Source: Buttiauxella warmboldiae
GTDB lineage: Bacteria > Pseudomonadota > Gammaproteobacteria > Enterobacterales > Enterobacteriaceae
Reading direction: 5' to 3'
NCBI RefSeq assembly: GCF_003818135.1
Contig: NZ_RPOH01000047.1
Coordinates: forward strand, 1-64,000
Length of the DNA: 64,000 nucleotides
A model generated the notes under the pieces. It saw nothing but the letters and a program-made list of their open reading frames with translations. It was not told where the DNA came from and did not search any database. The position numbers and the translations under genes were made by a program. The number at the start of each line of letters is the position of its first letter. The stretch's first letter is position 1. This document shows positions 19,667-37,187 of the stretch, one piece after another.

Positions 19667-19676
19667 GCAATACTCG

Positions 19677-19700
19677 CCCTTCTCCCTGACCGGAGAGGGG
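19677..19700 (+). repeat. CCCTCTCCC-type palindrome, copy 2
   Basis: CCTTCTCCCTGACCGGAGAGG, an imperfect palindrome 10 bp after the galP stop. It may act as a galP 3'-end hairpin. Confidence 0.55.
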
Positions 19701-19738
19701 CTTGCACCCAGCCCCTGCGCGCACTATTCTTGCCGGTT

Positions 19739-20254
19739 ATGAAATCCCCAAGACTCCCAATCGCTATCCAACAGGCCGTTATGCGCTGCCTGCGGGAAAA
19801 GCTCCAGCAGGCAAACCTGCATTTAGGCCGTCACTATCCGGAACCAAAACTGGTTTATCAGCAGCGTGGTACGGCTGCAGGAACCGCGTGGATGGAGAGC
19901 TACGAAATCCGCCTGAATCCCGTCTTGCTGATGGAAAACCAGCAGACATTCATCGATGAAGTTGTCCCGCATGAACTGGCGCATTTATTGGTCTGGAAGC
20001 ACTTTGGCCGCGTGGCGCCACACGGCAAAGAGTGGAAATGGATGATGGAAACCGTGCTTGGCGTTGCCGCCCGCCGCACCCATCAGTTTGCGGTACAGTC
20101 CATCCGCAAGAATACCTTCCCCTATCGCTGCCGCTGCCAGCTGCATCAGCTCACCATCCGACGCCATAACCGTGTCGTGCGCGGCGCAGCGCAATACCGC
20201 TGCGTTCACTGCGGCGAGCAGTTAAAACCAGAAGTTACAACTGACTGTAATTAA
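19739..20254 (+). CDS. sprT: SprT-family zinc metalloprotein
   Basis: SprT-like domain protein, related to the Spartan protease fold; its cellular role in enterics is not defined. The product is 171 residues (E. coli 165). It has the HELAHLL zinc motif near 78 and C-terminal zinc-ribbon pairs (CRCQLH and CVHCGE). The first ATG giving [12 protein letters not shown] is preferred over the in-frame TTG nine bases upstream. It lies between galP and endA. Confidence 0.92.
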
Positions 20255-20346
20255 AAATATTAAGCTTAAATTTTCCTGATGCTGCTGATTGAAACTGGAT
20301 AAATCATCAGGTACCGTGCGGGCACGTTTTAGTAAGGATTCTGGAA

Positions 20347-21054
20347 ATGTCTCGCAAAATTTCTTTGGCTGTTGCTGTTGTTGCAGCCTGCTGTTCTTTT
20401 TCCGCTTTTAGCGCCGGTATCAATAATTTTTCTCAGGCCAAAGCCGCAGGCGTTAAGGTCAATGCCGACGCACCCGGCGATTTCTATTGCGGATGCAAAA
20501 TTAGCTGGGAAGGAAAGAAAGGTATTCCCGATCTTGAGTCCTGCGGTTACAAAGTCCGTAAAAATGAAAACCGCGCCACGCGCATCGAGTGGGAGCACGT
20601 CGTCCCGGCCTGGCAATTCGGCCACCAGCGCCAGTGCTGGCAAGATGGCGGGCGTAAAAACTGCGCCAAAGATCCGCAATATCGCAAAATGGAAAGCGAT
20701 ATGCATAACCTGCAACCCGCGGTAGGCGAAGTGAATGCCGACCGTAACAACTTTATGTATAGCCAGTGGAACGGCGGTGAAGGCCAGTATGGGCAGTGTG
20801 CGATGAAAGTCGATTTCAAAGATAAAGTCGCCGAGCCGCCAGCCCGCGCCCGTGGGGCCATCGCCCGCACCTACTTTTATATGCGCGACCAGTATCAGCT
20901 CAATCTTTCACGCCAGCAAACCCAGCTATTTGAGGCCTGGAATAAGCAATATCCGGTAACGGCCTGGGAGTGTGAACGCGACGAACGTATCGCGAAAGTT
21001 CAGGGCAATCATAACCCTTATGTGCTGCGGGCTTGCCAGGCGCAAAACAGCTAA
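20347..21054 (+). CDS. endA: Endonuclease I
   Basis: Periplasmic, double-strand DNA endonuclease. The product is 235 residues, as in E. coli. It has a 22-residue signal peptide (hydrophobic AVAVVAAC stretch, SAFSAG cleavage region), disulfide-forming cysteines ([22 protein letters not shown]), and the beta-beta-alpha-metal nuclease segment [12 protein letters not shown]...[12 protein letters not shown]. An AAGGATTC ribosome-site region precedes the ATG. Confidence 0.96.
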
Positions 21055-21107
21055 CCTACACTAGCGGGAATTGTTACCACCGTTCCCGCTTCTGGATATT
21101 AAATACC

Positions 21108-21839
21108 ATGCGTATACCCCGCATTCATCACCCCGAACTTCTCACCGTCGGCCAGGACGTAGCGCTTTGCGAAGATGCAGCAAACCACGTTGGTCGCGTC
21201 CTGCGCATGAGTGCCGGTCACGCGCTGCAATTATTCGACGGCAGCAATCAGGTTTTTGCCGCTGAAATCATCCAGGCAGATAAAAAAAGTGTACGGGTGA
21301 AAGTGCTGAGTGCCAGCCTTGACGATCGCGAATCCCCCCTGCATCTGCATCTGGGCCAGGTGATGTCACGCGGCGAGAAAATGGAATTCACCATTCAGAA
21401 AGCGGTAGAGCTCGGTGTGAATGTGATTACGCCTTTGTTTTCTGAGCGCTGTGGCGTAAAACTGGATGCCGAGCGCCTGAATAAAAAGCTCGGGCAGTGG
21501 CAGAAAATTGCCATTGCTGCCTGTGAACAGTGTGGCCGAAATAGCGTGCCAGAAGTTCGCCCGGCGATGGATCTTGAAAAGTGGTGTACGGAGCAAGATG
21601 GCAGCCTGAAGCTGAATCTTCATCCACGTGCCAGCGCCAGCATCAATACGCTGCCGCAACCTGTTGAGCGTGTGCGCCTGCTGATCGGCCCGGAAGGGGG
21701 ATTAACGGCGGATGAAATTGCCATGACCGCACGTCATCAGTTTACTGATATTCTGTTGGGACCTCGCGTTCTGCGTACTGAGACTACCGCGCTCACCGCC
21801 ATTACCGCACTGCAGGTGCGTTTTGGCGACCTGGGCTAA
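21108..21839 (+). CDS. rsmE: 16S rRNA m3U1498 methyltransferase
   Basis: SAM-dependent methylation of U1498 in 16S rRNA of the small subunit. The product is 243 residues, as in E. coli. It has an N-terminal PUA-like domain and a C-terminal SPOUT trefoil-knot domain with [13 protein letters not shown] near 195 and [15 protein letters not shown] near 220. The ATG giving [10 protein letters not shown] is used. It is followed after 15 bp by gshB. Confidence 0.96.
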
Positions 21840-21854
21840 AAACGGAGAAAAACC

Positions 21855-22802
21855 ATGATCAAGCTCGGCATCGTGATGGATCCCATCGCACATATTAATA
21901 TCAAAAAAGACTCAAGCTTTGCCATGCTGCTGGAGGCCCAGCGCCGTGGCTACGAGCTGCATTACATGGAAATGGCCGATCTCTATTTGATCAACGGTGA
22001 AGCCCATGCGCGCACCCGCCTGCTCACCGTCGAGCAGAACTACGATAAATGGTATCAATTTGGCAGCGAGCAGGACATTCAGCTGGCCGATCTCGACGTG
22101 GTGTTGATGCGTAAAGATCCGCCGTTTGATACCGAATTTATCTACGCGACCTACATTCTTGAGCGCGCCGAAGAAAAAGGGACGCTCATAGTTAACAAGC
22201 CGCAGAGCCTGCGCGACTGTAACGAAAAGCTGTTCACCGCCTGGTTTGCAGACTTAACCCCGGAAACGCTGGTGACGCGCAACAAAGCGCAGCTTAAAGC
22301 CTTCTGGCAGCAGCACGGCGACATCATCCTCAAGCCGTTAGACGGCATGGGGGGTGCTTCTATTTTCCGCGTCAAAGAAGGCGATCCTAATATCGGCGTG
22401 ATTGCTGAAACGCTGACCGAGCTGGGCAACCGCTACTGCATGGCGCAGAACTACATCCCTGCGATTGTCGACGGTGACAAACGCGTTTTAGTCGTTGATG
22501 GCGAACCCGTGCCGTATTGCCTGGCGCGTATTCCACAGGGTGGCGAAACGCGCGGTAATCTGGCCGCCGGTGGTCGCGGCGAACCGCGTCCATTAACTGA
22601 AAGCGACTGGGAAATTGCCCGCCGTGTGGGTCCAACGCTAAAAGCTAAAGGGCTGATTTTTGTCGGCCTGGATATTATCGGCGATCGCCTGACCGAAATT
22701 AACGTCACCAGCCCAACCTGCATTCGTGAAATCGAAGCCGAATTCCCGGTATCTATCACGGGTATGCTGTTTGACGCTATCGAAAAACGTCTGGCTAAAT
22801 AA
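21855..22802 (+). CDS. gshB: Glutathione synthetase
   Basis: ATP-grasp ligase joining gamma-glutamylcysteine and glycine to form glutathione, the pool that also gates KefC in this window. The product is 315 residues (E. coli 315-316). Visible motifs are KPLDGMGGASIFR near 159, the GGETRGNLAAGGRG loop near 225 and the metal-binding EINVTSPT near 281. It probably forms an operon with rsmE. Confidence 0.97.
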   Translation: MIKLGIVMDPIAHINIKKDSSFAMLLEAQRRGYELHYMEMADLYLINGEAHARTRLLTVEQNYDKWYQFGSEQDIQLADLDVVLMRKDPPFDTEFIYATYILERAEEKGTLIVNKPQSLRDCNEKLFTAWFADLTPETLVTRNKAQLKAFWQQHGDIILKPLDGMGGASIFRVKEGDPNIGVIAETLTELGNRYCMAQNYIPAIVDGDKRVLVVDGEPVPYCLARIPQGGETRGNLAAGGRGEPRPLTESDWEIARRVGPTLKAKGLIFVGLDIIGDRLTEINVTSPTCIREIEAEFPVSITGMLFDAIEKRLAK

Positions 22803-22897
22803 TCCTCAGAGCGGGCCTGGCCCGCTCAATAGTGGTAAACTGACCACTCTTTGCGCGCGCTATGCCGCCTTTTTAACCGGAACCCGAACTTCTGACA

Positions 22898-23461
22898 ATG
22901 AATTTACAGCATCACTTTCTGATTGCCATGCCGGCGCTCCAGGACCCTCTGTTTAAGCGCGCTGTCGTCTATATTTGCGAACATAACGACGAAGGCGCGA
23001 TGGGGATAATCATTAATAAACCCCTGGAAAATCTGCAGGTTGACGGTGTTCTGGAAAAGCTAAAAATCAAGCCGGAACCGCGTGACGCCGCCATTCGCCT
23101 GGATAAACCCGTTTTTATTGGCGGCCCGCTGGCGGAGGATCGGGGTTTTATTCTCCATTCCCCACCGAACCGTTTTGCCTCCAGCATCCGCATTTCTGAC
23201 CAAACCGTTATCACCACCTCCCGGGACGTGCTGGAAACGCTCGGCACCGCGCAACAACCAGAGGATGTGATTGTTGCTCTCGGCTACTCCTCGTGGGAAA
23301 AAGGCCAGCTGGAACAAGAGATTCTGGACAATGCCTGGCTAACCGCTCCGGCAGACGCTGCGGTTCTTTTCCATACCCCGATTTCCGAACGCTGGCGCGA
23401 AGCGGCAAAATTAATCGGCATCGATATCTACAATATGCCAAGTGAAGCGGGACACGCCTGA
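22898..23461 (+). CDS. yqgE: UPF0301 (DUF179) protein YqgE
   Basis: Conserved cytosolic protein of unknown function, 187 residues as in E. coli. The family features [11 protein letters not shown] near 35 and the [13 protein letters not shown] loop near 75 are clear. Its stop overlaps the ruvX start by one base, a coupling conserved in enterics. Confidence 0.94.
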
Positions 23462-23880
23462 TGAGCAGTGGAACACTATTAGCCTTTGATTTCGGCACCA
23501 AAAGTATTGGGGTAGCCATCGGCCAGCGCATTACCGGTACCGCGCGCCCGCTCACCGCCCTGAAAGCACAGGACGGCACGCCGGACTGGAAGGTTATTGA
23601 AAAAATCCTTAAAGAGTGGCAACCCGATGAAGTGATTGTTGGCCTGCCGCTGAATATGGATGGCACCGAGCAACCCCTTACCGTACGCGCGCGTAAATTT
23701 GCCAACCGTCTGCATGGCCGTTTTGGCGTTAAAGTCTCTTTGCAGGATGAGCGCCTTAGCACCGTTGAAGCGCGTGCCGGCTTATTCGAACACGGCGGCT
23801 TCCGGGCGCTGAACAAAGGCAGCATTGACTCAGCTTCCGCCGTTATCATCCTTGAAAGCTGGTTTGACTATCATCCCTAG
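23461..23880 (+). CDS. ruvX: Pre-16S rRNA nuclease YqgF/RuvX
   Basis: RNase H-fold nuclease that processes the 5' end of 16S rRNA; older names suggest a Holliday resolvase. The product is 139 residues (E. coli 138). Catalytic acidic residues sit in [13 protein letters not shown] near 8 and in the C-terminal [11 protein letters not shown]. The ERLSTVEA motif is present. It overlaps yqgE by one base and converges on a possible small reading frame downstream of yggR. Confidence 0.96.
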
Positions 23881-24035
23881 TCTTTTTTGCTATCAGGCGT
23901 ATCGGCATCCTCTTTGAGAAGCTCACGCCTGGCCGCAACGGCCAGAAAATGGCTGCGATCTCTGTAACCCGATTCTGGCTGTTTTACTCGATTATCAATT
24001 GCTGGCGCTTTTTGCAGCAAAAATATCAACAACAC
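23877..24035 (-). CDS. Possible small ORF in frame with and downstream of yggR
   Basis: After the yggR TAG the same frame stays open for 56 codons up to a second TAG overlapping the ruvX end. A GTG start gives 52 residues: a short hydrophobic N-terminus ([11 protein letters not shown]) and a polar, charged C-terminal half ending DSKKD. The ribosome site is poor (AGGCGGTG context). It could be a small protein, a readthrough extension of YggR, or chance. I do not recognise a family. Confidence 0.25.
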
Positions 24036-24047
24036 CGCCTGATATCT

Positions 24048-25037
24048 CTATTTTTCACCGAGTTTCCCCTCACGGACCAATACCGCCTCACTCTGCGTAA
24101 AACTCTGCATCCCGTGCTGCTGGCCGGTTTGTATCAGCCCCGGCAGCTGATGGGTTTTTCCTTCACGGATAAGATTCGCCACGGCAGGCGTGTTCACCAA
24201 TAGTTCATACAGCGCCACTCTTGCGCCGTGACCATCCGGCAGAAGCTTCTGCGCCAGCACGGCTTTCAGGCTTCCGGCAAGCTGGCTGCGCACCCTATTT
24301 TTTTCTTCCGCAGCAAAGACGTCCAGCAGCCGTTCTACGGCAGGTGCTGCACCTCGGGTATGGAGCGTTGCCAACACCAGATGCCCGGTTTCGGCGGCAG
24401 TCAGCGCAAGGCGGATGGTTTCGCTATCCCGTAACTCCCCCAGCAAGATCACGTCGGGATCTTCACGTAATGCAGCACGTAAACCAGCGGCAAAAGATCC
24501 ACAATGCTCCCCCACCTCACGCTGTTGGATTAAGCAGCGCTGGGGGCGGTGAACAAATTCAACGGGATCTTCAAGGGTAAGAATATGCCCGTCGAACTGC
24601 TGGTTAAGAAAGTCCACCATCGCCGCAAGCGTGGTGGATTTTCCACTGCCGGTGGCTCCGGTCACCAGAATTAGCCCGTCGGGAGATTGTAATAATTCGG
24701 GAATTATCGCCGGGACGTTTAGCGCCCCGAGCTGCGGGCTGTCGGAAGCTAACAATCGCAGCGCCAGCGAGTAACCGTTTAGCTGACGGAAGGCGTTAGC
24801 GCGCAGCCGCGTCCCCGCTTTCAGCGTCACGGCAAAATCTAACTGCCCGCAGGCTTCAAGCTGCTCTCGCTGCCCCCGGGTAAGCCAGGCATCCAGCAAC
24901 GCTTCGGGGCGTGGAGCACTTTCAGCCAGCGGCTCAAGCCGCCCTTGTCTGCGCCAGCGCGCAGGAAGCTGCGCGCACAGGTGTAGATCGGAAGCGTTAT
25001 GCTTTACACTAAGGGCCACAATTTCTTCGATATCCAT
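24048..25037 (-). CDS. yggR: PilT-like secretion ATPase YggR
   Basis: Cytosolic ATPase of the type II/IV secretion GspE-PilT superfamily. E. coli YggR has no proven role and no pilus genes surround it. The product is 329 residues. It has Walker A GATGSGKST near 134, the Asp box LTLEDPVEF, Walker B ILLGELRD near 205, and a conserved His in LATLHTRG. The start giving MDIEEIVALSVKHN matches E. coli and lies only 15 bp from divergent yggS. Confidence 0.93.
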   Translation of the reverse strand: MDIEEIVALSVKHNASDLHLCAQLPARWRRQGRLEPLAESAPRPEALLDAWLTRGQREQLEACGQLDFAVTLKAGTRLRANAFRQLNGYSLALRLLASDSPQLGALNVPAIIPELLQSPDGLILVTGATGSGKSTTLAAMVDFLNQQFDGHILTLEDPVEFVHRPQRCLIQQREVGEHCGSFAAGLRAALREDPDVILLGELRDSETIRLALTAAETGHLVLATLHTRGAAPAVERLLDVFAAEEKNRVRSQLAGSLKAVLAQKLLPDGHGARVALYELLVNTPAVANLIREGKTHQLPGLIQTGQQHGMQSFTQSEAVLVREGKLGEK

Positions 25038-25052
25038 ATCACTTTCCAACCT

Positions 25053-25757
25053 ATGAACGAGATAGCGCACAATCTGGCACAGGTTCAGAATAAAATCCTG
25101 GCGGCAGCGGAACGCTGCGGCCGCGCCCCAGAAGAAGTGACCTTGCTTGCAGTCAGCAAAACGAAGCCTGCAGGCGCCATCGCAGAAGCGGTGGCGGCCG
25201 GGCAGCGGGTTTTTGGTGAAAACTACGTGCAGGAAGGCGTGGACAAGATCCGTTACTTTGCCCAAATCGGTGAAGTTCCGCTGGAATGGCACTTTATCGG
25301 CCCGCTACAGTCGAATAAAAGCCGTCTGGTTGCGGAGCATTTTGACTGGTGCCACACCGTGGACAGGCTGCGTATTGCCACGCGCCTGAGCGAACAGCGC
25401 CCGGCTGATATGGCGCCGCTTAACGTGCTGATGCAAATTAATATCAGTGATGAACAAAGCAAATCCGGCATTGCGCTGAGTGAACTTGATGCGCTTGCCG
25501 CTGAGGTTGCCGCACTGCCGGGTTTGCGGTTACGAGGTTTAATGGCGATCCCTGCCCCTGAACCTGATTACGAGCGCCAGTTAGCGGTTTGCCAGAAAAT
25601 GGCTGACGCTTTCGCCGCGCTCAAAAACCGTTATCCAACGGTTGATACGTTGTCCCTGGGCATGACCGATGACATGGACGCCGCGATTGCCGCAGGCAGC
25701 ACCATGGTGCGCATTGGAACCGCTATTTTCGGCGCGCGGGATTATTCCGCTCGTTAA
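25053..25757 (+). CDS. yggS: PLP homeostasis protein YggS
   Basis: PLP-binding TIM-barrel protein of the COG0325 family that buffers pyridoxal phosphate. The product is 234 residues, as in E. coli. The PLP lysine is in LLAVSKTKP near 36, with FGENYVQE near 56 and the phosphate loop LSLGMTDDMDAAIAAGSTMVRIGTA-type segment near 200. It starts a run yggS-yggT-yggU-rdgB-hemW with gaps of 26 bp or less, or overlaps. Confidence 0.96.
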   Translation: MNEIAHNLAQVQNKILAAAERCGRAPEEVTLLAVSKTKPAGAIAEAVAAGQRVFGENYVQEGVDKIRYFAQIGEVPLEWHFIGPLQSNKSRLVAEHFDWCHTVDRLRIATRLSEQRPADMAPLNVLMQINISDEQSKSGIALSELDALAAEVAALPGLRLRGLMAIPAPEPDYERQLAVCQKMADAFAALKNRYPTVDTLSLGMTDDMDAAIAAGSTMVRIGTAIFGARDYSAR

Positions 25758-25783
25758 TCACAAAATAATAATTGAGGAACGCC

Positions 25784-26338
25784 ATGCTGACGTTGACTTT
25801 CCTGGTCAAAACGCTGATTGAACTGTACGTAATGGTGCTGCTAATTCGCATCTGGATGCAGTGGTCACGCTGTGATTTTTACAATCCTTTTGCGCAGTTT
25901 ATCGTCAAGATTACCCAGCCGGTTCTCGGGCCGCTACGCCGGGTGATTCCGTCGATTGGGCCAATTGATACCTCTTCACTGCTGCTGGCCTTTATTCTCA
26001 CCACGCTGAAGTATCCGATTCTGCTGCTGATTCAGGTGGGGGCGCTGTCGCTTGATCCGATGAACCTGCTGGTTGGCCTGCTATCGCTGCTGAAATCCGC
26101 CGGTACGCTGGTGTTCTGGGTGATTATTATTCGCTCGCTGATGAGCTGGATTAGCCAGGGCCGCAGCCCGGTCGAATACCTGCTGATGCAGCTCACTGAA
26201 CCCATGATGGCACCGATTCGCCGTGTGATTCCGGCCATGGGCGGCATTGATTTCTCCGCGATGGTGGTGATTTTGATCCTCTATGCGCTTAATTATCTCG
26301 GTATGGATCTGTTCCCGGGGCTTTGGTATTTGCTGTGA
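25784..26338 (+). CDS. yggT: YGGT-family inner-membrane protein
   Basis: Integral membrane protein of unknown detailed role; in E. coli it has been linked to osmotic/potassium tolerance. The product is 184 residues (E. coli 188) and is built of two YGGT repeats. Each has a hydrophobic helix followed by a (D/E)(F/Y)-containing loop and RRVIP..G.ID (near 58 and 155). A TGAGGA ribosome site precedes the chosen ATG. Confidence 0.92.
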
Positions 26339-26625
26339 GTGCCGTGAGTCAAACCGCAGAAGGGCTGGTTTTACGGCTGTATATTCAGCCTAAAGCCAGC
26401 CGCGATAGCATCATTGGGCTACATGGCGACGAGCTAAAAGTCGCCATCACCGCCCCACCGATAGACGGCAAAGCCAACGCCCATCTGGTAAAGTATCTGG
26501 CCAAACAGTTTAAAGTTGCCAAAAGCCTGGTTGTGGTTGAGAAAGGCGAACTGGGCCGCCATAAGCAAGTAAAGATTATCGAACCGCAACACATCCCGAC
26601 GCAAATCGCGGCATTGCTCGAATAA
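26335..26625 (+). CDS. yggU: DUF167 protein YggU
   Basis: Small conserved protein, 96 residues from the chosen GTG, which overlaps the yggT stop by four bases (GTGA). It has the family core [22 protein letters not shown]-type segment and [11 protein letters not shown] near 45. The function is unknown. E. coli YggU is 100 aa; an in-frame TTG 12 bases upstream is the alternative start. Confidence 0.88.
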
Positions 26626-26645
26626 TTTCACAGGATTTTCTCACT

Positions 26646-27239
26646 ATGCAAAAAGTTGTCCTCGCGACCGGTAACGCCGGTAAAGTGCGTGAACTCGCTG
26701 ATTTACTGGGTGATTTCGGTCTCGATGTTATAGCGCAAACTGAATTAGGCGTAGAGTCTGCCGAAGAAACCGGGCTGACGTTTATTGAGAACGCCATTCT
26801 GAAAGCTCGCCACGCGGCGCAAACTACCGGCCTGCCAGCGATTGCCGATGATTCTGGTCTGGCGGTTGACGTGCTGGGGGGCGCGCCGGGGATTTACTCA
26901 GCGCGTTACGCCGGTGAGGATGCCTCCGATCGGCAGAACCTGGAAAAGTTACTGGCTGCACTAAAAGATGTGCCGGACGAGCAGCGCAAAGCACGTTTCC
27001 ACTGCGTGCTGGTGTATATACGCCACGCCGAAGACCCAACGCCGCTGGTGTGCCACGGTAGCTGGGAAGGCCAGATTACTCGCGAATCTGTGGGTAGCGG
27101 TGGTTTTGGCTACGACCCAATCTTCTTTGTTCCGAGTGCAGGCAAAACCGCCGCTGAACTGACTCGTGACGAAAAACGCGCGATCTCCCACCGCGGGCAA
27201 GCGCTAAAACTGTTACTGGAAGCAATGAAAAATGGCTAA
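26646..27239 (+). CDS. rdgB: dITP/XTP pyrophosphatase
   Basis: Removes deaminated purine nucleotides (dITP, XTP) before incorporation, a house-cleaning enzyme of the HAM1 family. The product is 197 residues, as in E. coli. It has the N-terminal [12 protein letters not shown], the metal-binding [15 protein letters not shown] near 69 and the C-terminal SHRGQALK. It overlaps hemW by eight bases. Confidence 0.96.
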
Positions 27240-28368
27240 TTTGCCGCCGCTGAGTCTCTATATTCACATCCCGTGGTGCGTGCAGAAGTGCCCCTACTGT
27301 GACTTTAACTCCCACGCATTAAAGGGCGACGTCCCCCACGACGAGTATGTCGCCCACCTGTTGCGCGATCTGGATAACGACGCGCCAATGGCTCAAGGAC
27401 GTGAAATAAAGACCATCTTTATCGGTGGCGGTACGCCAAGCCTGCTTTCAGGCGAGGCGATGCAAAATCTGCTCGACGGGGTGCGTGCGCGCCTGCCGTT
27501 GGCAGCGGATGCAGAAATTACCATGGAAGCCAACCCGGGTACGGTAGAAGCAGACCGTTTCGTCAGTTATCAGCGCGCTGGCGTGAACCGTATTTCTATT
27601 GGCGTGCAGAGTTTCAGCGAGCCGAAACTCAAGCGTCTGGGGCGTATTCATGATGCCGGTGAAGCGCAACGCGCGGCACGCCTGGCAAGCGGCCTTGGCC
27701 TGCGCAGCTTCAACCTGGATTTGATGCACGGCCTGCCGGATCAGTCACTGGAAGAGGCGCTGGACGATTTGCGCCAGGCGATTGAACTTAACCCGCCGCA
27801 TCTCTCGTGGTACCAGCTGACGATTGAACCCAACACGTTGTTTGGCTCGCGCCCGCCCACATTGCCGGATGATGATGCGCTGTGGGATATTTTCGAGCAG
27901 GGCGATAAGCTGCTGAACGCGGCGGGTTATCAGCAATATGAAACCTCGGCCTACGCCAGACCAGGCTATCAGTGCCAGCACAACCTGAACTACTGGCGCT
28001 TTGGCGATTACCTGGGGATTGGCTGTGGTGCACACGGTAAAATTACATTCCCAGATGGCCGTATTTTACGTACCGCGAAAACGCGCCATCCACGCGGTTA
28101 TATGGCCGGTAAATATCTCGACCACCAGCACGATGTGGAGCAAGCCGATAAGCCGTTCGAGTTCTTTATGAACCGCTTCCGCCTGCTGGAAGCCGCGCCG
28201 CGCCATGAATTTAAGCGCTATACCGGGCTTGATGAGTCGGCGATCCGTGTACAGCTCGACGAAGCGATAGCTAAAGGTTATGTACTCGAAACCGAGGAGT
28301 GCTGGCAGATTACCGGGCATGGCAAGCTGTTTTTGAATTCGCTGCTGGAGCTGTTCTTAGCGGAGTAG
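27232..28368 (+). CDS. hemW: Radical-SAM heme chaperone HemW
   Basis: Radical-SAM family protein that binds and transfers heme (formerly annotated as oxygen-independent coproporphyrinogen oxidase). The product is 378 residues, as in E. coli. It has the iron-sulfur motif CVQKCPYC near 16 and the SAM-binding GGGTPS near 69. It is the last gene of the yggS operon and the last gene of the 66-minute-type block; in K-12 yggM and ansB follow, but here setA does. Confidence 0.96.
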
Positions 28369-28376
28369 CCTGATGT

Positions 28377-28400
28377 TGTATGGCGGCAACCCGCCATACA
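28377..28400. terminator. Perfect inverted repeat between hemW and setA
   Basis: TGTATGGCGG and its exact complement flank a CAAC loop, between two convergent genes. There is no T-tract either way, but it can form a strong RNA hairpin for both transcripts. It marks the boundary of the two conserved blocks. Confidence 0.6.
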
Positions 28401-28409
28401 GCACCCACC

Positions 28410-29588
28410 TTAAATATTCTGTACGCGGCTCGTCAACACCAACGCCACGACGGCCAAACCGGCCATTAACCAATACACCGAATAGTGCCCAAAACTCTCC
28501 GCCAGCGCCCCTTGTAAAACCCCGGCCAGAATTACCCCGGTTGAAATACTATTAGTGAACAGCGTGGTCGCAGACCCCGGCCTGCCGGGCATTAAATCCT
28601 GGAACCACAGCATGCCGATCCCCGCAACAATCCCGATAAATACCGCATTAAATAGCTGAAGCAGCAGAAGAGCCGTACGGCTATGAAACAGAATCAGCCC
28701 GAGGTAAAACAGCACCCCAGCCGCAACGGCAACCACCATCATGCGGCGCTTGCCGAAGCGTTTCACATAGTAACCCGCGAGGATCATCGCCGGAATTTCC
28801 AGCCCCGCAGCGGTCCCCATCAGCAGCCCGGCCAGCGATTCAGGCAGCCCTAAATCACTGCTGACCCACAGCGGCATGTCGATGATATACATGGTGTTGC
28901 AGGTCCACATCAGCATCGAGGCGATAAACAGCATACGCACGTTTTTATCTTTCCAGCCGCTGACCTGGGTGAGCGCCACATCCGCAGGCTGCTCAATTCT
29001 GGCGACTGACGGGAGCGCAAAAAAGATAATCGCCAGCGAGATAACAAAAATCCCCGCAGCAATAAGAAACATGGTGGTGAAGCCATAGTTTAGCGCCAGC
29101 ATAAACGATAGCGGCGGGCCAATAACCCAGGCAAGAGAGAGCTGCGCGCGCATTATCGAGCTGAACATCACCACTTCCCGTGCCGAGTTATCGGCATATT
29201 CACGGGCAAGGGCAAATATTTGCGGCATCGCGGTATTGGCAATAGACGCGAACATGACGCCAATGGTGATTAACGTCAGGTAATGGCGGTTAAAAGCAAA
29301 AAGCACACAGTTTGCTACTGCCATCACGCAACAAACCATAATCAGTTTGCGACGATCGCCCTGATTATCTGAACGCTTCGCCAGCGCCAGACTGACGAGG
29401 ATCCCGGCTATCGCATTGACGGTATAAAACAGGCCGACCCAGAATGGACGTACCTCGACTTCGCGACTTAAAAACAGGCTAAGCGTGGGGGCCTGAAGCG
29501 CCCCGGCAATCCCCATCATAAAAGCCACTACCATAAAGGCCGCATACACCGGATTGAGGCGTCGTCCTTTTGTCAAAAACCACAGCAT
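28410..29588 (-). CDS. setA: Sugar efflux transporter SetA
   Basis: Major-facilitator exporter of the SET family that can expel glucose/lactose analogues. In E. coli it is part of the SgrS stress response. The product is 392 residues, as in E. coli, with about twelve hydrophobic helices and conserved blocks (PTLSLFLSREV near 31, LAREYADNSAREVVMF near 123, MPGRPGSATTLFTNS near 335). The ATG chosen gives MLWFLTKGRRLNPVY. It is downstream of sgrS on the same strand, separated by a shortened ERIC. Confidence 0.92.
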   Translation of the reverse strand: MLWFLTKGRRLNPVYAAFMVVAFMMGIAGALQAPTLSLFLSREVEVRPFWVGLFYTVNAIAGILVSLALAKRSDNQGDRRKLIMVCCVMAVANCVLFAFNRHYLTLITIGVMFASIANTAMPQIFALAREYADNSAREVVMFSSIMRAQLSLAWVIGPPLSFMLALNYGFTTMFLIAAGIFVISLAIIFFALPSVARIEQPADVALTQVSGWKDKNVRMLFIASMLMWTCNTMYIIDMPLWVSSDLGLPESLAGLLMGTAAGLEIPAMILAGYYVKRFGKRRMMVVAVAAGVLFYLGLILFHSRTALLLLQLFNAVFIGIVAGIGMLWFQDLMPGRPGSATTLFTNSISTGVILAGVLQGALAESFGHYSVYWLMAGLAVVALVLTSRVQNI

Positions 29589-29637
29589 GCAGAAATTCCT
29601 TTTGTCCGGGCGCTCATTGAGTGTGCAAAACGTCAAC

Positions 29638-29718
29638 TATACCCTAAATAATTCAGGTTGCAGGTAGAGGGTAAGTGAGTGCAGCCAACCCCCTGCCGCT
29701 TGAAGTATGACGGGTATA
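29638..29718. repeat. Internally deleted ERIC element
   Basis: An 81-bp element bounded by TATACCC and GGGTATA inverted ends. It keeps the outer ERIC arms (AAATAATTCAGGTTGCAGG; CTTGAAGTATGACGGGTATA) and a core remnant GTAAGTGAGTGCAGCCAAC. A full ERIC is about 127 bp, so the centre is lost. Its end abuts the sgrS terminator T-tract. Confidence 0.85.
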
Positions 29719-29968
29719 AAAAAGCCAGCAGGAACAATCTGCTGGCCTGGTGATATCACCAATTCTCAGTTACACATCTCGGTAAGTCAGCGCTTCCCGG
29801 CCGCGGGAACGGTAATCTCCCACTGCATTAAGTCCTCGAGCATCTTCAGACGTTGCGATGCCGTCAGGCGAGCCAGCCATCCAGCAGAAACACATTGTGT
29901 TGCGGCAAAATACTGTTGATAAAACTTAACCATCGGCGACCGTTTCATCTGCACCTCCTCACTTTCAA
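29718..29968 (-). ncRNA. sgrS: SgrS small RNA
   Basis: Hfq-dependent glucose-phosphate stress RNA that represses ptsG and other sugar-transport mRNAs. The 3' end shows the E. coli SgrS layout: seed-like GTGTAACTGAGAATTGGTG (29757-29775), then a GCCAGCAG/CTGCTGGC hairpin with six T (29718-29746). It encodes SgrT in its 5' part and is divergent from sgrR. The 5' end is estimated from a TTAACT-N17-ATAATC promoter-like pair. It is about 250 nt, versus 227 in E. coli. Confidence 0.88.
29787..29948 (-). CDS. sgrT: SgrT, small inhibitor of glucose transporter PtsG
   Basis: Short protein encoded within SgrS that inhibits the PtsG transporter. The 53-residue product contains FYQQYFAAT, WLARL, SQRLKMLEDLMQW, aligning with the 43-residue E. 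coli SgrT (FYQHYFTAT, QRLTMLEGLMQW). I use the ATG with AGGAGG five bases upstream, giving MKRSPMV; an internal ATG 15 bases later is the alternative. It is longer than E. coli SgrT at both ends. The seed region lies downstream of its stop, as in E. coli. Confidence 0.85.
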   Translation of the reverse strand: MKRSPMVKFYQQYFAATQCVSAGWLARLTASQRLKMLEDLMQWEITVPAAGKR

Positions 29969-30036
29969 CGTTGATGATTATTGGCGTAATATGAGGAAAG
30001 TTAAATTGATGAGTTTCTGCCGGGAGTTCCTCTTTT

Positions 30037-31695
30037 ATGGTGTCCAGTCGACTGCAACAACAATTCATCCGCCTGTGGCAGCACTTTGAAGGTAAAGCAC
30101 AGGAGACGACGCTGAATGATTTAGCCGACCTGCTGAATTGCTCGCGCCGCCATATGCGAACCTTACTGAGCGCGATGCAGGAAAAGGGCTGGCTGAGCTG
30201 GAGAGCGGAAGTGGGGCGCGGAAAGCGTTCACAGCTGGAGTTCCTCTACACCGGCCTGGCGCTTCAGCAGCAGCGGGCCGAGGATCTTCTGGAGCAGGAT
30301 CGTATCGATCGGCTGGTACAGATCGTTGGCGATAAAGCCGCGGTGCGCCAGATGCTGATCTCCCATCTTGGGCGCAGCTTCCGCCAGGGGCGGCATATTC
30401 TGCGGGTACTTTACTATCGTCCGCTGCTAAACCTGTTACCCGGCTCGGCCTTACGCCGTTCAGAAACCCATATTGTGCGGCAAATTTTCAGCGGGCTAAT
30501 CCGCATAAATGAGGAAAATGGGGAACTGGAAGCGGATATTGCCCACCACTGGCAGCAAATTTCCCCATTACACTGGCGTTTTTATCTGCGCCCCGGCATT
30601 CATTTCCACCATGGCCGCGAGCTGGATATGCTCGATGTGATGGCTTCCCTGCAACGCATTAATTGCCTGCCGCTGTATTCGCATATCACGCAAATTACCT
30701 CGCCCACGGCGTGGACGCTGGATATCACCCTTTCACAGCCGGACTGCTGGCTACCGTGGCTGCTGGGCAGCGTCAACGCGATGATCCTGCCGCGTGAATG
30801 GCAAACGCTGCCTGACTTTGCCCGGCAGCCGGTCGGCTCCGGCCCCTATTCGGTGGTGCGCAACAATGCCAATCAGCTCAAGATCCAGGCCTATGATGAT
30901 TATTTCGGCTACCGCGCATTAATAGACGAAGTGAACTTCTGGGTATTGCCCGATATTGGCGAAGACGTCAGCTGCGCGGTGCAATTATCGGGCATGCCCG
31001 ACAGTGAAAAAGCCGTCGAAAGCCGTCTGGAAGAAGGCTGCTACTACATCCTGTTTGACAGACGATCCCCGTCCGGCAGCCAGGCGTCAGTGCGCCGCTG
31101 GCTCAGTCATGTGCTGGCACCGATTCATCTGCTTTATAGCGCAGGCGAGCAGAACCAGCAGTACTGGTTCCCGGCATATGGCTTGCTGCCGCGCTGGCAC
31201 CACACCCGGCCTCAGCCCGCGCTCGAAAAGCCTGCCGGGCTTGAGTCCGTAACGCTGACGTTTTATCGCGACCACGTCGAACACCGGACGATCGGTAAAG
31301 TGATGGAAGAGCTGCTGGCACGCGTTGGCGTTAAGCTTGTGATCCAGGAGGTGAGCTATGAAGAGTGGTATCAGGGCGATGCCGAAAGCGATATCTGGCT
31401 TAACAGCGCCAACTTTACTCTGCCGCTGGAATTTTCACTCTTTTCGCATCTTTATGAAGTACCGCTGATTCAAAAATGCATTGCGATTGACTGGGAAACC
31501 GATACCCGAAAATGGCATAACGGCGAGCTTGCGCTGCCTGAGTGGTGCCAGCAGCGCGTTGAAAGCAATGATATTTTACCGTTAATCCACCACTGGCTAC
31601 GCATCGAGGGGCAGCGCAGCATGCGCGGCGTGCGCATGAATACGCTGGGCTGGTTTGACTTTAAATCAGCGTGGTTTGCGCCGCCGGAACCATAG
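30037..31695 (+). CDS. sgrR: SgrR, activator of sgrS
   Basis: Transcriptional regulator of the sugar-phosphate stress response that activates sgrS. The 552-residue protein has an N-terminal winged-helix domain (about 1-110, with [16 protein letters not shown]) fused to a periplasmic-binding-like SBP_bac_5 domain that senses a small molecule. E. coli SgrR is 551 aa. It is divergent from sgrS, as in E. coli, with only about 70 bp between their starts. Confidence 0.95.
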
Positions 31696-31735
31696 CGCTT
31701 CCGAATCATTAAGGAAGCCAGTAGAATCGCAACTG

Positions 31736-31818
31736 CTCAACGGGGTGCTAAGACGAAAGTCTGGCTGAGATAATACCCGTCGAACCTGATCCGGATAACG
31801 CCGGCGAAGGGATTTGAG
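31736..31818 (+). promoter_or_regulatory. TPP riboswitch (THI element) of thiBPQ
   Basis: Contains the conserved TPP-riboswitch segments GGGGTGC, GGCTGAGA, ACCCGT, GAACCTGATCCGGATAA, GCCGGCGAAGGGA. P1 is closed by CTCAA (31736-31740) and TTGAG (31814-31818). It is the aptamer controlling the thiamine transporter operon. Confidence 0.96.
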
Positions 31819-31826
31819 GACCAACA

Positions 31827-31867
31827 CTCAAAATCCTTTGCCACCCCTAATGCCAAGAGGTGCAAAG
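31827..31867 (+). promoter_or_regulatory. thiB expression platform with RBS-sequestering hairpin
   Basis: CTTTGCCACC (31836-31845) can pair with GGTGCAAAG (31859-31867), trapping the AAGAGG ribosome site and reaching the GTG start. CTCAAAATCC (31827-31836) can also pair with GGATTTGAG from the P1 3' strand. This suggests translational control; it has not been folded computationally. Confidence 0.65.
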
Positions 31868-32850
31868 TGTTGAAAAAATTTCTGCCGTTACTGGCGCTCA
31901 TCGCCGCCCCTGTTTTTGCCAAACCCCTGCTGACCGTTTACACCTACGACTCCTTTGCCGCCGACTGGGGCCCGGGCCCGGCGGTGAAAAAAGCCTTCGA
32001 AGCGGGCTGTGATTGCGAGCTGAAATTCGTCGCCCTCGAAGATGGCGTTTCGCTGCTTAACCGTCTGCGTATGGAAGGTAAAAACAGTAAAGCCGACGTG
32101 GTGCTGGGGCTGGATAACAACCTGCTGGAAGCGGCCGCGCAGACGAAACTGTTCGCGCCATCCAATGTCGACGCCAGCGCGTTGAAAATCCCTGGCGGCT
32201 GGAACAACGACACCTTCGTGCCGTTCGATTACGGCTATTTCGCCTTCGTGTACGATAAAAACAAACTGAAAAACCCGCCGCAAAGCCTGCAAGATCTGGT
32301 AGAAAGCGACCAGCAATGGAAAGTGATTTATCAGGACCCGCGCACCAGCACGCCCGGTTTAGGCCTGCTGTTATGGATGAACAAAGTCTACGGCGACAAA
32401 ACGCCTGAAGCCTGGGCAAAACTGGCGAAGAAAACCGTTACCGTCACCAAAGGCTGGTCTGAGGCTTACGGCCTGTTCCTGAAAGGGGAAGGCGATTTAG
32501 TGATGAGCTACACCACCTCCCCTGCCTATCACATCATCGAAGAGAAAAAAGAGAACTACGCGGCGGCCAGTTTCAGCGAAGGCCATTATTTACAGGTGGA
32601 AGTGGCGGGTCGTTTAGCCTCCAGCAAACAGCCAGAGCTGGCTGGGAAATTTATGAAGTTCATCACTTCTCCAGGCTTCCAGAACGCCATCCCAACTGGC
32701 AACTGGATGTATCCGGTGGCTGACGTCAAACTGCCAGAAGGCTTTAACGGGCTGGTGAAACCGCAAACCACGCTTGAGTACAGCGCTCATGAAGTGGCAA
32801 GCCAACGCGCCGGCTGGATTAGCGAATGGCAACGCGCCGTCAGCCGCTGA
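31867..32850 (+). CDS. thiB: Thiamine-binding periplasmic protein
   Basis: Substrate-binding protein of the thiamine/TMP/TPP ABC importer ThiBPQ. The product is 327 residues, as in E. coli. It has a short signal peptide (KKFLPLLALIAAPVFA) and conserved blocks TYDSFAADWGPGP and YQDPRTSTPGLGLL near 158. The start is GTG, seven bases after AGAGG. The 3' end overlaps thiP by 25 bases. Confidence 0.96.
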   Translation: MLKKFLPLLALIAAPVFAKPLLTVYTYDSFAADWGPGPAVKKAFEAGCDCELKFVALEDGVSLLNRLRMEGKNSKADVVLGLDNNLLEAAAQTKLFAPSNVDASALKIPGGWNNDTFVPFDYGYFAFVYDKNKLKNPPQSLQDLVESDQQWKVIYQDPRTSTPGLGLLLWMNKVYGDKTPEAWAKLAKKTVTVTKGWSEAYGLFLKGEGDLVMSYTTSPAYHIIEEKKENYAAASFSEGHYLQVEVAGRLASSKQPELAGKFMKFITSPGFQNAIPTGNWMYPVADVKLPEGFNGLVKPQTTLEYSAHEVASQRAGWISEWQRAVSR

Positions 32851-34439
32851 TCCCCGGCTGGCTGATCCCAGGGCTATTTGCCGCCGCGCTGGTGGTGGCT
32901 GTCGCCCTGGCGGCTTTTCTGGCGCTGTGGTTTAACGCGCCGCAGACCGATATCCGCGCCCTGTTGCAGGACAGCTATTTATGGCACGTGCTGCGCTTCT
33001 CTGTCTGGCAGGCATTGCTTTCAGCGCTCCTTTCGGTATTCCCGGCTATTTTTCTGGCGCGCGCGCTTTATCGCCGCCGCTTTCCCGGCAGGCTTGCGCT
33101 ATTACGTCTGTGTGCCATGACGCTGGTGCTGCCGGTGCTGGTGGCGGTATTCGGTATTCTGACGGTTTACGGACGTGAAGGCTGGCTCGCCTCCCTTTGC
33201 GCAAGGCTTGGAATAGAGTGGGTTTTCTCGCCGTATGGTTTACAAGGCATTTTATTAGCCCACGTCTTCTTTAATCTGCCAATGGCGACCCGCCTGCTGC
33301 TGCAGGCGCTGGAAAATATCCCCAGCGAGCAGCGCCAGATCGCCGCGCAACTCGGCATGCAGGGCTGGAATTTCTTCCGTTTTGTCGAATGGCCGTGGCT
33401 GCGCCGCCAGATCCTGCCTGCCGCGGCGCTGATTTTTATGCTCTGTTTCGCAAGCTTTGCCACCGTGCTGTCACTGGGCGGCGGGCCGCAGGCAACCACC
33501 ATTGAGCTGGCAATTTTCCAGGCGCTCAGCTACGACTACGATCCCGCGCGGGCGGCACTGCTCGCATTAGTCCAAATGATTTGCTGCCTGGGGCTGGTAT
33601 TGATGAGCCAGCGCCTCAGCAAAGCGATTCCGGTGGGCATCAGCCAGATGCAGGGCTGGCGTGACCCGCAGGATAAGCTGCGGCGTAAACTGTGCGACGG
33701 GCTGTTAATTACGCTGGCACTAATGCTGCTGCTGCCGCCGCTTTTGGCGGTAATTATTGATGGCATCAATAGCGGTTTTAGCCGCGTGCTGTCACAGCCG
33801 ATTCTCTGGCAGGCTTTATTTACCTCGTTAAGAATTGCAGTCGGCGCGGGATTGATAAGCGTAGTCATCACGGTGATGCTGCTGTGGAGTTCGCGGGAAC
33901 TGCGCCTGCGCAACCGCGCATTTGCCGGGCAGGCAGCACTGGAACTGAGCGGCATGCTGATTCTGGCAATGCCGGGGATCGTACTGGCAACCGGCTTTTT
34001 CCTGCTGCTCAACAACACCGTGGGGTTACCCCAATCGGCCGATGGCATCGTCATGTTTACCAATGCGCTGATGGCGGTTCCCTATGCGCTTAAGGTGCTG
34101 GAAAACCCGATGCTGGATGTGGCTGAACGCTATAACAAATTGTGCCAGTCGCTAAACATCAGCGGGTTAAATCGCCTGCGTTATATTGAGCTGCGGGCGC
34201 TAAAACGCCCGCTGGCGCAGGCGCTGGCGTTCGCCTGCGTGCTGTCGATTGGGGATTTTGGCGTCGTGGCGCTGTTTGGCAATGAAGATTTCCGCACGCT
34301 GCCGTTTTATCTCTATCAGCAAATGGGTTCATATCGCAGCCAGGATGGCGCCGTTACCGCCCTGATACTGCTGATGCTGTGCTTTGCTTTATTCACTTTG
34401 ATTGAAAAACTTCCGGGACGCCATGCTAACGCTGACTGA
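32826..34439 (+). CDS. thiP: Thiamine ABC transporter permease
   Basis: Inner-membrane permease of ThiBPQ. It is a fused two-module protein of 537 residues (E. coli 536) with about twelve helices and two EAA-type loops ([23 protein letters not shown] near 174 and the C-terminal [18 protein letters not shown] region near 440). It overlaps thiB at its start and thiQ at its end, indicating coupled translation. Confidence 0.96.
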
Positions 34440-35127
34440 TGTAACCTGGCTTTATCACCACTTGCCGATGCGTTTTTCTCTGACGCTAAACGCCGGGGAA
34501 CGCGTTGCGGTGCTGGGGCCAAGCGGCGCCGGGAAAAGTACGCTGCTCAGCCTGATTGCCGGTTTTCTGACCCCTGCCAGCGGGCAGATCGGCCTTAGCG
34601 GTGACGACCATACTCGCACGCCTCCCGCACAGCGCCCGGTTTCGATGCTGTTTCAGGAAAACAACCTTTTCACGCATTTGACGGTACGCCAGAACATTGG
34701 GCTGGGGTTAAATCCCGGGCTCAAGCTCACTGCTACGCAACAAGATCGTCTGGCGACCATTGCCAGCCAGATGGCGATCGGCGATTTGCTCGAGCGGCTT
34801 CCCTCGCAGCTTTCCGGCGGCCAGCGCCAGCGCGTCGCCCTCGCTCGTTGTCTGGTGCGCGAACAGCCGATTTTGCTGCTCGATGAGCCGTTTTCAGCAC
34901 TCGACCCGGCCCTGCGCCAGGAAATGCTCACGCTGCTGGATAACCTGTGCCGCCAGCAGCAGCTGACGCTGCTGATGGTTTCACACAGTATTGAAGATGC
35001 GGCACGGATTGCCGAAAGAAGCCTGGTGGTGGTCGATGGCCGCATCGCCTGGGATGGCGACACGGCAACCTTATTGAGCGGGGAAGCCAGCGCGTCCGCG
35101 CTGTTGGGAATTAATGGTGCCCGGTGA
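34423..35127 (+). CDS. thiQ: Thiamine ABC transporter ATP-binding protein
   Basis: ATPase of ThiBPQ, 234 residues. It has Walker [10 protein letters not shown] near 32, Q-loop FQENNLF near 80, signature LSGGQRQR near 128 and Walker [14 protein letters not shown] near 148. The ATG within the thiP end is chosen to match the E. coli start. Its stop overlaps the convergent yabI end by 17 bases. Confidence 0.96.
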
Positions 35128-35884
35128 GCACTTTCCACAGAATTTCACGGTAAATCGGCATTAGCGGATGCATTTGGATCGCCACAAAGCCGCCTGTCGC
35201 CAGCACCGCCATTGCGGGTGCTAACCAGCGCAAACGGGCGCGTGGCAGGTACTGCGTCAAACGATCGGAACTGGCCTTATCGCTACGCCACCAGCGCCAG
35301 CACAGCCAGGCCGCAAGCCAGATGCCGAGCGCCACCGCCAGCAGCAACCATTTAAAGCTGCCGCTTTGCATATCCGCCGGGATATCAATCGCCGCGCCCG
35401 CCAGTATCCCCGGTAAGAAATAGATCGGCGGCCAGAAGAGACAACCAATAATATTCGGGATGATAAATTTCGCCACCGGAAGGTCCAGCATGCCTGCGAC
35501 CATCGGCACCAGCGGGCGCGTCGGGCCAACAAAGCGACCAACAAGAATAGTAAACATGCTGTGCTGATGCAGGGCGTGCTCGGTTTTATCCAGCAGCGCT
35601 TTATTCTTTTTTATAAACGACCAGCGGTGCAGCGGCCCCTTGAAACGGCCCCCAAGCCAGAACGAAATCCAGTCGCCCAGCAGGCAGCCCACCGTTCCCG
35701 CAGCCCAGGCGTGATAAAAACCCACCTGGCCGCCGCCAATCAGCGCGCCAAGCCCCGCCATCATTACCGTACCGGGAAGGATCAGCCCCACCAGCGCCAG
35801 CGATTCGAGAAACGCCACCAGCATCACCGCAAAAAGCGAATACGCCACTGACTGAGTAATAAAGTGTTCCAGCAAAGCTTCCAT
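35111..35884 (-). CDS. yabI: DedA-family membrane protein YabI
   Basis: Inner-membrane protein of the DedA/VTT family, whose members are tied to lipid scramblase activity and membrane homeostasis; YabI itself is redundant in E. coli. The product is 257 residues. It has [16 protein letters not shown] near 25, the [12 protein letters not shown] segment and the signature [16 protein letters not shown] near 115. The start giving [12 protein letters not shown] is used, 132 bases inside the longest frame. Confidence 0.93.
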
Positions 35885-35958
35885 AAAGCATCCGTCGAGA
35901 AACGAGTGGGCGATTCTCCTGAGTGATGAGAGTAACGTCAAGCCATCAATTGTATGAA

Positions 35959-36085
35959 TATCCCCTTCATACTTCACGCTGTAGATGCGTTGACTGCACC
36001 CGCTCGCCCCAGTCACATAGTTTGCTATGCTCCTGAGGACTTACGGCCTGGTCGCCTTTCTACAACGCGAATTATTTTGGGGATA
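35959..36085. repeat. ERIC element, full length
   Basis: A 127-bp element between yabI and araC with TATCCCC/GGGGATA ends. Its core matches the ERIC consensus used for typing (CGCTCgCCCCAGTCAC; GCTCCTGaGGa-TTAC) with several changes. It is the usual ERIC length. The flanking gap otherwise shows nothing. Confidence 0.9.
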
Positions 36086-36100
36086 GATAAATAGTAGTAC

Positions 36101-36946
36101 TTACTCACATCCCGCGCGGAACTCGCTCGGGCTGGCCCCGGTACATTTCTTAAACACGCGCGAAAAATAGAGCTGATCTTCAAAACCGACGTTGCGCCCG
36201 ACGCTGGCGATCGGCATACGCGTGGTGCTGAGCAACAGTTTTGCCTGAAGGATGCGCTGGTCTTCGCGCCAGCTTAATACGCTGACGCCAAGCTGCTGGC
36301 GGAACAGATGCGACAGGCGCGAGGGCGACAGGCAGACGTGCTGGGCAACGCTTGCGATCTCAAAATGGTGATCGGCCAGATGGTCGCTAATGTACTGGCA
36401 CGCATCGCGTACGCGGTTATCAAGCGGGGGGTTAAGCGAGGCACTTAACACTTCCATGCGCCGTAGCAGGAGCTGTTCTAGCAGATTGATCGCCAGCAGC
36501 TCTGCGTAACGCCCTTCCGCCTGCCCGGCCTCAATAATCTGCCCAAACAGCTGAGAAAAGTTTTGCTGGTGCGCGTCGTCCGGGCGAAAAAAACCGGTGT
36601 GGGCAAAAATCGGCTCCCAGTTCAGCCACTCCTGCCAGTACGCCCGGGGGCGGAAGTAGACCCACTGGTGATACCACTCTTTGCTCTCGGGCGCCCGGCC
36701 ATAGTGGTGCACCTCTCCCGGAGGGAACAGCAAAATATCGCCGGGGCGGCAGAGGTAATTTTTCCCCTGGTTATTGATAACGCCTTCACCGCGCACGGTT
36801 AAATTCAGAATGTAGCCTTTCATCCCAAGCGGGCGGTCAATGAAAAAATCCAGCGGCCCTCCCGCTTCTATCGGCGTTAAACCGGCCACCAGGTGGGCGT
36901 TAAAGGAGTACCCCGGCAACAGGGGATCGTTTTGCATTTCAGCCAT
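36101..36946 (-). CDS. araC: Arabinose operon regulator AraC
   Basis: Dimeric regulator that represses araBAD by looping without arabinose and activates it with arabinose. The product is 281 residues, versus 292 in E. coli, ending at FRAGCE. It has an N-terminal arm and cupin domain ([15 protein letters not shown] start) and two C-terminal helix-turn-helix motifs ([43 protein letters not shown]). It is divergent from araB. Confidence 0.96.
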
Positions 36947-36975
36947 CATCAAACTCGCTATTCAATTGGCATAAC

Positions 36976-36997
36976 GGAAACAATTTGTCCATATCCC
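36976..36997. promoter_or_regulatory. araO2 operator
   Basis: GAAACAATTTGTCCATATCC resembles E. coli araO2 (GAAACCAATTGTCCATATTG), including the TCCATA core. It lies in the araC leader. Confidence 0.7.
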
Positions 36998-37124
36998 TGA
37001 CCCGGTTCATCCGCCCCCGGGTGCCGAAACATTCCGCGGCTCTGATGGCATCATAACGCCGTAATTTAACTGGACAGATGCTTTTCATGCGCCAGAAATC
37101 ACGTTTTGTGAAGATAGCCAAAGT

Positions 37125-37152: not shown

Positions 37153-37155
37153 TCG

Positions 37156-37178: not shown

Positions 37179-37187
37179 CTCAGCGGC

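Follow-up and report, generated by a model that had tools for sequence, protein, structure and literature searches.

How did two groups of genes that lie far apart on the Escherichia coli K-12 chromosome come to be neighbours in Buttiauxella warmboldiae? The DNA studied here (the window) covers positions 1 to 64,000 of a 65,612-nt contig (G000:C47:1-64000) in a draft genome of 4.30 Mb and 135 contigs. Several papers give, in the text available, a good account of symmetric inversions and of their bias (PMC2483231, PMC5850607, PMC9584773, PMC12863080), and the cause of their frequency, recombination bias or selection, was open when the first of these was written, as far as that text goes (PMC2483231). 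We conclude that the junction in the window marks one end of an inversion between the replichores, ~1.57 Mb long and with oriC at its centre, turned once on the Buttiauxella stem, a reading to which we give a probability of about 0.93.

The hemW/setA junction

A single tblastn run placed 43 K-12 proteins on the window. In the left part, the order and strand from tktA- to rdgB+ and hemW+ are those of the K-12 66-min region, up to position 28365. The right part reads setA- sgrR+ thiBPQ+ yabI- araC- araBAD+ polB+ rapA+ rluA+ djlA-, followed by lptD-surA-pdxA-rsmA-apaGH+ folA- kefCF- carB- carA-, and is the K-12 block at 0.03-0.08 Mb read backwards (Table 1). Left of tktA seven proteins were named by NCBIfam, including phosphoglycerate dehydrogenase, ArgP, ArgO, MscS, class II fructose-bisphosphate aldolase and erythrose-4-phosphate dehydrogenase; phosphoglycerate kinase scored under the cut-off of its model. 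These seven also belong to the K-12 66-min side. The initial annotation had described a join of two K-12-distant blocks at this point, and the alignments bear it out.

Table 1. Features of the window around the junction
Feature	Position	Strand	Description
Left block	9735..28368		tktA to hemW in K-12 66-min order
hemW	27232..28368	+	NCBIfam TIGR00539, 470 bits; 87% to K-12 HemW; closes the 66-min block, with the left-arm breakpoint at its 3' end
Junction gap	28369..28409		41 bp, stop to stop, separating hemW from setA, whose 3' ends converge
Hairpin	28374..28403		arms 13 nt, loop 4 nt; only terminator-like
setA (sugar efflux transporter)	28410..29636	-	NCBIfam TIGR00899, 542 bits; 79% to K-12 SetA; opens the reversed 0.03-0.08 Mb block, with the right-arm breakpoint at its 3' end
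Right block	28410..63624		K-12 setA to carA, backwards

The hairpin in the gap is stable (fold -23.1 kcal/mol, z -3.75), and is classed as only terminator-like because no T-run follows it on either strand. GC skew has the same sign on either side of the junction (-0.0166 and -0.0171), which is expected if fork direction is unchanged; GC3 skew to the right of the junction is almost nil. Upstream of setA, positions 29640-29725 hold what we take to be the ends of an ERIC element with its core missing.

Since the genome is a draft in 135 contigs, the two blocks might have been brought together as an assembly chimera of distant contigs, a possibility raised in the initial annotation. Against this, hemW and setA are direct neighbours in eight named Buttiauxella assemblies, with differing gap sequences, and the reciprocal junction described below is present in all eight. 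An artefact of assembly can therefore be set aside as next to impossible.

The reciprocal junction

An origin-symmetric inversion predicts a second junction, and this was found. K-12 LeuD matches the B. warmboldiae genome at G000:C3:89731-90330, and contig C3 reads murE ... leuABCD+, then a gap of 54 bp, then yggN- yggL- trmB- mutY+ yggX+ mltC+. The leuD/yggN gap contains a strong hairpin; a T-run follows on the + strand and another, five bases further, on the - strand. The two genes are likewise neighbours in 8/8 named Buttiauxella genomes, with gaps of 41-239 bp, and both junctions are present in all nine genomes examined for both (B. warmboldiae and the eight named). The ends of hemW, setA, leuD and yggN are thus joined crosswise, as an inversion requires.

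The initial annotation had the leuD side of this prediction right, but had expected yggM and ansB beside leuD, where yggN lies instead, and had taken their absence as grounds for refutation. They are indeed absent, yet the un-inverted sister clade also lacks them between hemW and yggN (6/6 genomes), so that they were the wrong marker and the logic is intact. K-12 YggM gave no match in the B. warmboldiae genome, in a search that had no positive control (YggM matches a control locus elsewhere), and neither YggM nor AnsB matched the Buttiauxella junction loci or the sister-clade hemW-yggN loci tested, both matching the control locus. Both genes were dropped as markers of the reciprocal junction, and leuD and its neighbour were used instead. 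A close ansB occurs in two of 17 genomes, Cedecea davisae (in the old place) and Buttiauxella sp. B2 (elsewhere), the other 15 having a match of only ~30%. The copy of Buttiauxella sp. B2 (G253:C8:5005-6048) is 91% identical to K-12 and lies away from the junction; other Buttiauxella checked differ.

The ancestral order would have been rdgB and hemW facing yggN on one arm, then oriC, then setA facing leuD on the other. A single flip of the yggN-oriC-setA segment on the Buttiauxella stem would give hemW facing setA and leuD facing yggN. In the reading we prefer, both arms would have broken when the forks had travelled equally far, ~0.8 Mb from oriC, and the breaks would have been mis-joined; selection would keep those cuts that spare operons. 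Survival would be favoured by ends in 3'-3' gaps and by arms that stay balanced. No operon or promoter is cut, because the four end genes were and stay in convergent pairs. On the maps, genes after the inversion keep about the same distance from oriC and the same direction relative to the fork.

Symmetry about oriC

Distances were measured in one genome, Buttiauxella agrestis DSM 4586 (G246), on its 5.14-Mb contig C1, the record being titled UNVERIFIED_ORG and circularity being assumed. The junctions lie at 231,855 and 1,805,878, and oriC near 1,009,434 (mnmG-oriC-asnA at 1,007,318-1,011,721), so the inverted segment includes the origin. The junctions are 777.6 and 796.4 kb from oriC, a difference of 18.9 kb, in keeping with the origin symmetry claimed in the initial annotation; the two endpoints in K-12 are 827 and 795 kb away. 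With dif at 3,539,481, the arms of this one contig are 2.53 and 2.61 Mb. A dif-like site with two mismatches is found on the second contig of the same genome (G246:C2:91482-91509).

The relative orientation of oriC and dif was considered as a constraint, after the canonical OriDif idea in the available text of PMC2483231, and was set aside; it is the same in 24/40 genomes and opposite in 16/40. The Cedecea-group genome G065 and B. agrestis DSM 4586 have the same orientation, C. davisae and K-12 the opposite one.

Two nested inversions

A single inversion from K-12 order, as initially supposed, is not sufficient. In B. agrestis DSM 4586 the oriC region has the K-12 + orientation in the frame in which hemW is +, and the genes flanking rrnD, C, A, B, E, H and G are likewise oriented as in K-12. 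One inversion of a K-12-like order should turn oriC, and an inner origin-spanning inversion is therefore needed too. The inner inversion is also seen in G065: its hemW, setA and leuD are in K-12 orientation, and its oriC, rrnD and rrnC/A/B/E are turned. When the two genomes are compared, order is mirrored, with flanking genes unchanged, for the five rrn loci that lie within the segment; the two rrn loci beyond it are unturned, and blocks within 232-559 kb and 1591-1700 kb of B. agrestis align in mirrored order. Parts of these zones do not align (~377-411, 419-490 and 1616-1674 kb of B. agrestis), and the mirrored collinearity is that of sampled zones, which make up the smaller part of the 1.57 Mb. 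Gene names in these zones change abruptly, on the left between thrA-slt-prfC and ftsH-rpoN-arcB-yhdP and on the right between tamB and garD-rpoD-dnaG. On the K-12 map these jumps join ~4.6 to 3.3 Mb and ~4.4 to 3.3 Mb, respectively. Two nested inversions relative to K-12, the inner predating the outer, describe these maps best.

The same maps bear on a simpler idea, that only the setA-carA block was transposed to hemW, with no inversion across oriC. Set against K-12 alone, two blocks seem swapped and turned around a middle that seems untouched, and the K-12 orientation of oriC and rrnD/C/A/B/E relative to hemW in B. agrestis fits this. However, transposition needs two matched moves where one inversion from a G065-like order suffices, the reciprocal leuD/yggN junction exists, and the sampled segment is mirrored and collinear with that of G065, whose oriC is turned. 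We consider transposition very improbable and retain the inversion.

Among 23 genomes with hemW, setA and oriC in the matches listed and on one contig, oriC is turned relative to hemW in nine, which means that inversions spanning the origin are common in Enterobacteriaceae. In two of these (G076 and G235) the turning is their own hemW-gap inversion, described below. Compared with K-12, both B. agrestis DSM 4586 (L160-L162) and G065 (L171-L173) have exchanged the blocks that separate rrnC, rrnA and rrnB, giving yieP/mobB, murI/hdfR and hemG/murB. An eighth 16S gene in B. agrestis DSM 4586 (L164, G246:C1:1654349-1655888) is without the tested K-12 rrn flanking genes; G065 has seven.

Distribution and dating

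Contigs of GTDB species were scanned with the SetA of the window, and the best 80 of 247 loci were used. In this set setA is followed by hemW in eight loci (L039-L045, L055), all titled Buttiauxella and from cultured strains, and directly by leuD in 68; the rest have a cra-like gene and then leuD (L096), a cra-like match only (L058) or nothing in view (L056, L105). The hemW/setA gap occurs in nine distinct Buttiauxella versions of 39-155 bp. Six genomes represent the sister clade: Dryocola, Cedecea colo, Cedecea sulfonylureivorans, Enterobacter sp. R1, the metagenome-assembled genome (MAG) L047 and G065. All six keep the old order, hemW then yggN and setA then leuD, with hemW-yggN gaps of 81-1157 bp in five and of ~9 kb in C. 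sulfonylureivorans.

In a tree of setA-sgrR-thiB-thiP-thiQ the nine inverted genomes are monophyletic (support 1.0), next to the un-inverted sister clade (support 0.992), in which G065 groups with C. sulfonylureivorans. B. warmboldiae branches first within Buttiauxella, the remaining Buttiauxella having a support of 0.82. The un-inverted order is the outgroup state (sister clade 6/6; setA-leuD in 68 of the best 80 of 247 loci) and the inverted order is derived. The comparison with neighbouring genera proposed for dating the event thus places it on the Buttiauxella stem, and a single inversion there, the best placement, fits all genomes compared.

Two records call for comment. MAG L047 is titled 'uncultured Buttiauxella' and has the old order, falling with Dryocola and Cedecea; it is probably mislabelled. 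L039 and L055 are both titled B. agrestis ATCC 33320, one of them as UNVERIFIED_ORG, and the main pieces that align in a 17-kb locus show ~83-90% identity, too far apart, to judge by sequence identity, for one strain.

Repeats at the junctions

Homologous recombination between inverted ERIC or REP copies in both gaps could also have produced the inversion. ERIC is found in six of nine leuD/yggN gaps, compared with 1/54 convergent gaps in the B. agrestis stretches and 1/45 in G065, and in Buttiauxella sp. A111 it is present in both gaps, in the same orientation when these are read from hemW to setA and from leuD to yggN, as the repeat model predicts. REP-like palindromes are found in 6/9 hemW/setA gaps and in 3/14 hemW-yggN gaps of relatives. 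Each repeat is scarce at the other junction (ERIC in 1/9 hemW/setA gaps, REP-like words in 1/9 leuD/yggN gaps), and REP-like words occur at close to the level of convergent gaps in general (12/54 in the B. agrestis stretches, 15/45 in G065), which counts against REP as the cause. ERIC is above background at leuD/yggN, though the copies look like few insertions. It is disfavoured as well, being inconsistent across species and old-order gaps: it is absent from 68 distinct setA-leuD and 14 distinct hemW-yggN gaps in the old order, the first-branching B. warmboldiae has neither ERIC nor REP at its junctions, nor has Buttiauxella sp. B2, and Buttiauxella sp. A111 is nested in the tree. Other genera using the hemW gap have no single repeat common to their junctions. 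Across the Buttiauxella gaps (n=9 per junction) no repeat that carried out the exchange was identified, and we regard repeat-mediated recombination as unlikely.

Reuse of the hemW-yggN gap in other genera

The gene after hemW was surveyed, from the matches listed, in 58 genomes (40 + 18), mostly one per genus. An old neighbour (yggM, ansB or yggN) follows in 40, and a gene of the right arm in nine from five genera (G043, G186, G062, G140, G235, G076, G197, G122, G225), four of which (G140, G235, G076, G122) were assigned once more K-12 proteins had joined the query set. Five genomes gave no call, one at a contig end (G158) and four with 4 kb seen (G097, G068, G114, G048). In the remaining four, from four genera (G215, G099, G216, G002; L248, L255, L283, L319), hemW is followed by ftsP-plsC-parC, which lies 64 kb further in K-12. 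These were not read as origin-spanning inversions, because in G215, G099 and G216, the three located, the contig of hemW also carries yggN, at a distance of ~92-98 kb.

The yggN side was located in 9/9 of the right-arm genomes. Genus g62 (G186, G062) has hemW/secA and mutT/yggN, and mutT, its start taken from an alignment with K-12 MutT, begins 12-13 bp from where yggN ends. G043, a single genome, has hemW/acnB and yacL/yggN. Pseudescherichia (G076, G197) and g140 (G140, G235) both have hemW/djlA and rluA/yggN, with yggM and other sequence, 4.7 kb in all, before yggN in G140. Both Siccibacter genomes (G122, G225) have hemW/mog, with ~1.5 kb between, and satP/yggN. The loci concerned are L258, L260, L280, L257, L261, L279, L268 and L290-L300. 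Beyond Buttiauxella there are therefore four further right ends, acnB-yacL, secA-mutT, djlA-rluA and mog-satP, each with both reciprocal junctions seen. Together with setA-leuD of Buttiauxella, five distinct right ends share a single left gap, and the lineages concerned stand apart in the tree. Pseudescherichia and g140 share one clade with Kosakonia, and on this phylogeny the djlA-rluA inversion may be one event. Two right ends, secA-mutT and acnB-yacL, are tandem pairs in K-12, so the rule of convergent gaps is not strict. A further inversion in g140 has a thiQ/yggC junction. A paralogue as the explanation for setA near hemW was ruled out in six genomes (G235, G186, G140, G043, G227, G134), where leuD, sgrR and thi genes flank it.

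In K-12 coordinates, the five right ends are offset by -102, -53, -33, -1 and +23 kb from the point that mirrors hemW. Were five points placed uniformly along the right arm, the P of all being that close would be about 5e-6, a figure that restates the symmetric bias. A fairer sample, chosen by setA, took genera with setA on the contig of hemW in the relative orientation of the window; among the matches listed these were six (Buttiauxella, g134, g125, g140, g62, g43). The left end of the setA move is the hemW-yggN gap in three of the six; g140 used yggC, and ansB still comes after hemW in g134 and g125 (in the latter ~3.3 kb on). Under a crude model for these setA-ascertained genera, reuse of the left gap has a P of 0.06 if 12 gaps are taken as equivalent and of 0.016 if 24 are. 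Reuse above chance is suggested but not decisively so, the statistics being limited by ascertainment.

The hemW-yggN gap thus appears to be a favoured endpoint, because four other inversions with different right ends share it. It is possible, though we rate the chance at somewhat under even, that the gap has long been an inversion hub of Enterobacteriaceae, ~0.83 Mb out on the left arm, and that at least five times, independently, it was joined to whatever stood opposite on the right arm. In that case a property of the site (fork stalling, breakage or contact between arms), not repeat homology, would set one end, and fork synchrony the other. The gap could instead be reused only as one of few harmless cut sites, permissive rather than fragile, and for this the odds seem to us level. 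In favour of this, the gap is convergent and tolerates insertions (yggN lies >3.4 kb into the stretch in 12/29 old-order genomes, against ~2.8 kb in K-12), and the P values for reuse are not overwhelming. K-12, however, has 12 convergent pairs within 3.074-3.170 Mb alone, and equal permissiveness would spread endpoints among them.

A fixed end with partners scattered round its mirror point helps to separate recombination bias from selection. Breakage at the fixed end is open to study in E. coli K-12, and how far its partners scatter (-102 to +23 kb) is a reading of the offset from arm to arm. The hemW/setA junction also provides a clean marker for Buttiauxella.

Comparison with known systems

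Inversions and translocations mediated by rrn, as in Salmonella, turn or move large blocks near oriC. The Buttiauxella inversion is unlike these events: neither junction holds an rrn, judging from the gaps of 39-239 bp and the rrn map of B. agrestis DSM 4586, and the exchange of rrnC/A/B blocks in the same lineage is a separate event. Among the open-access papers listed, neither this inversion nor a breakpoint in the hemW-yggN gap is described in any title or abstract start, and none was found that has 'yggN' and 'hemW' together.

With the origin-symmetric inversions described in the available text of PMC2483231, PMC5850607, PMC9584773 and PMC12863080, the Buttiauxella inversion shares near-equal distances from oriC, balanced arms and fork polarity that is kept. 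It differs from them, as far as those texts go, in being genus-wide as sampled and in having its junctions in convergent gaps of 39-239 bp with no rRNA gene. Another likeness is to Yersinia, in which some inversion endpoints are used repeatedly; that work, in the text available, stays within a single genus, its endpoints lie near ribosomal operons, and a figure legend marks IS counts (PMC2483231). Unlike these endpoints, the hemW-yggN gap is an ordinary intergenic gap, reused across genera with different partners. The type of inversion is already known, and it is the fixed endpoint with its wandering mirror partners that is the interesting part.
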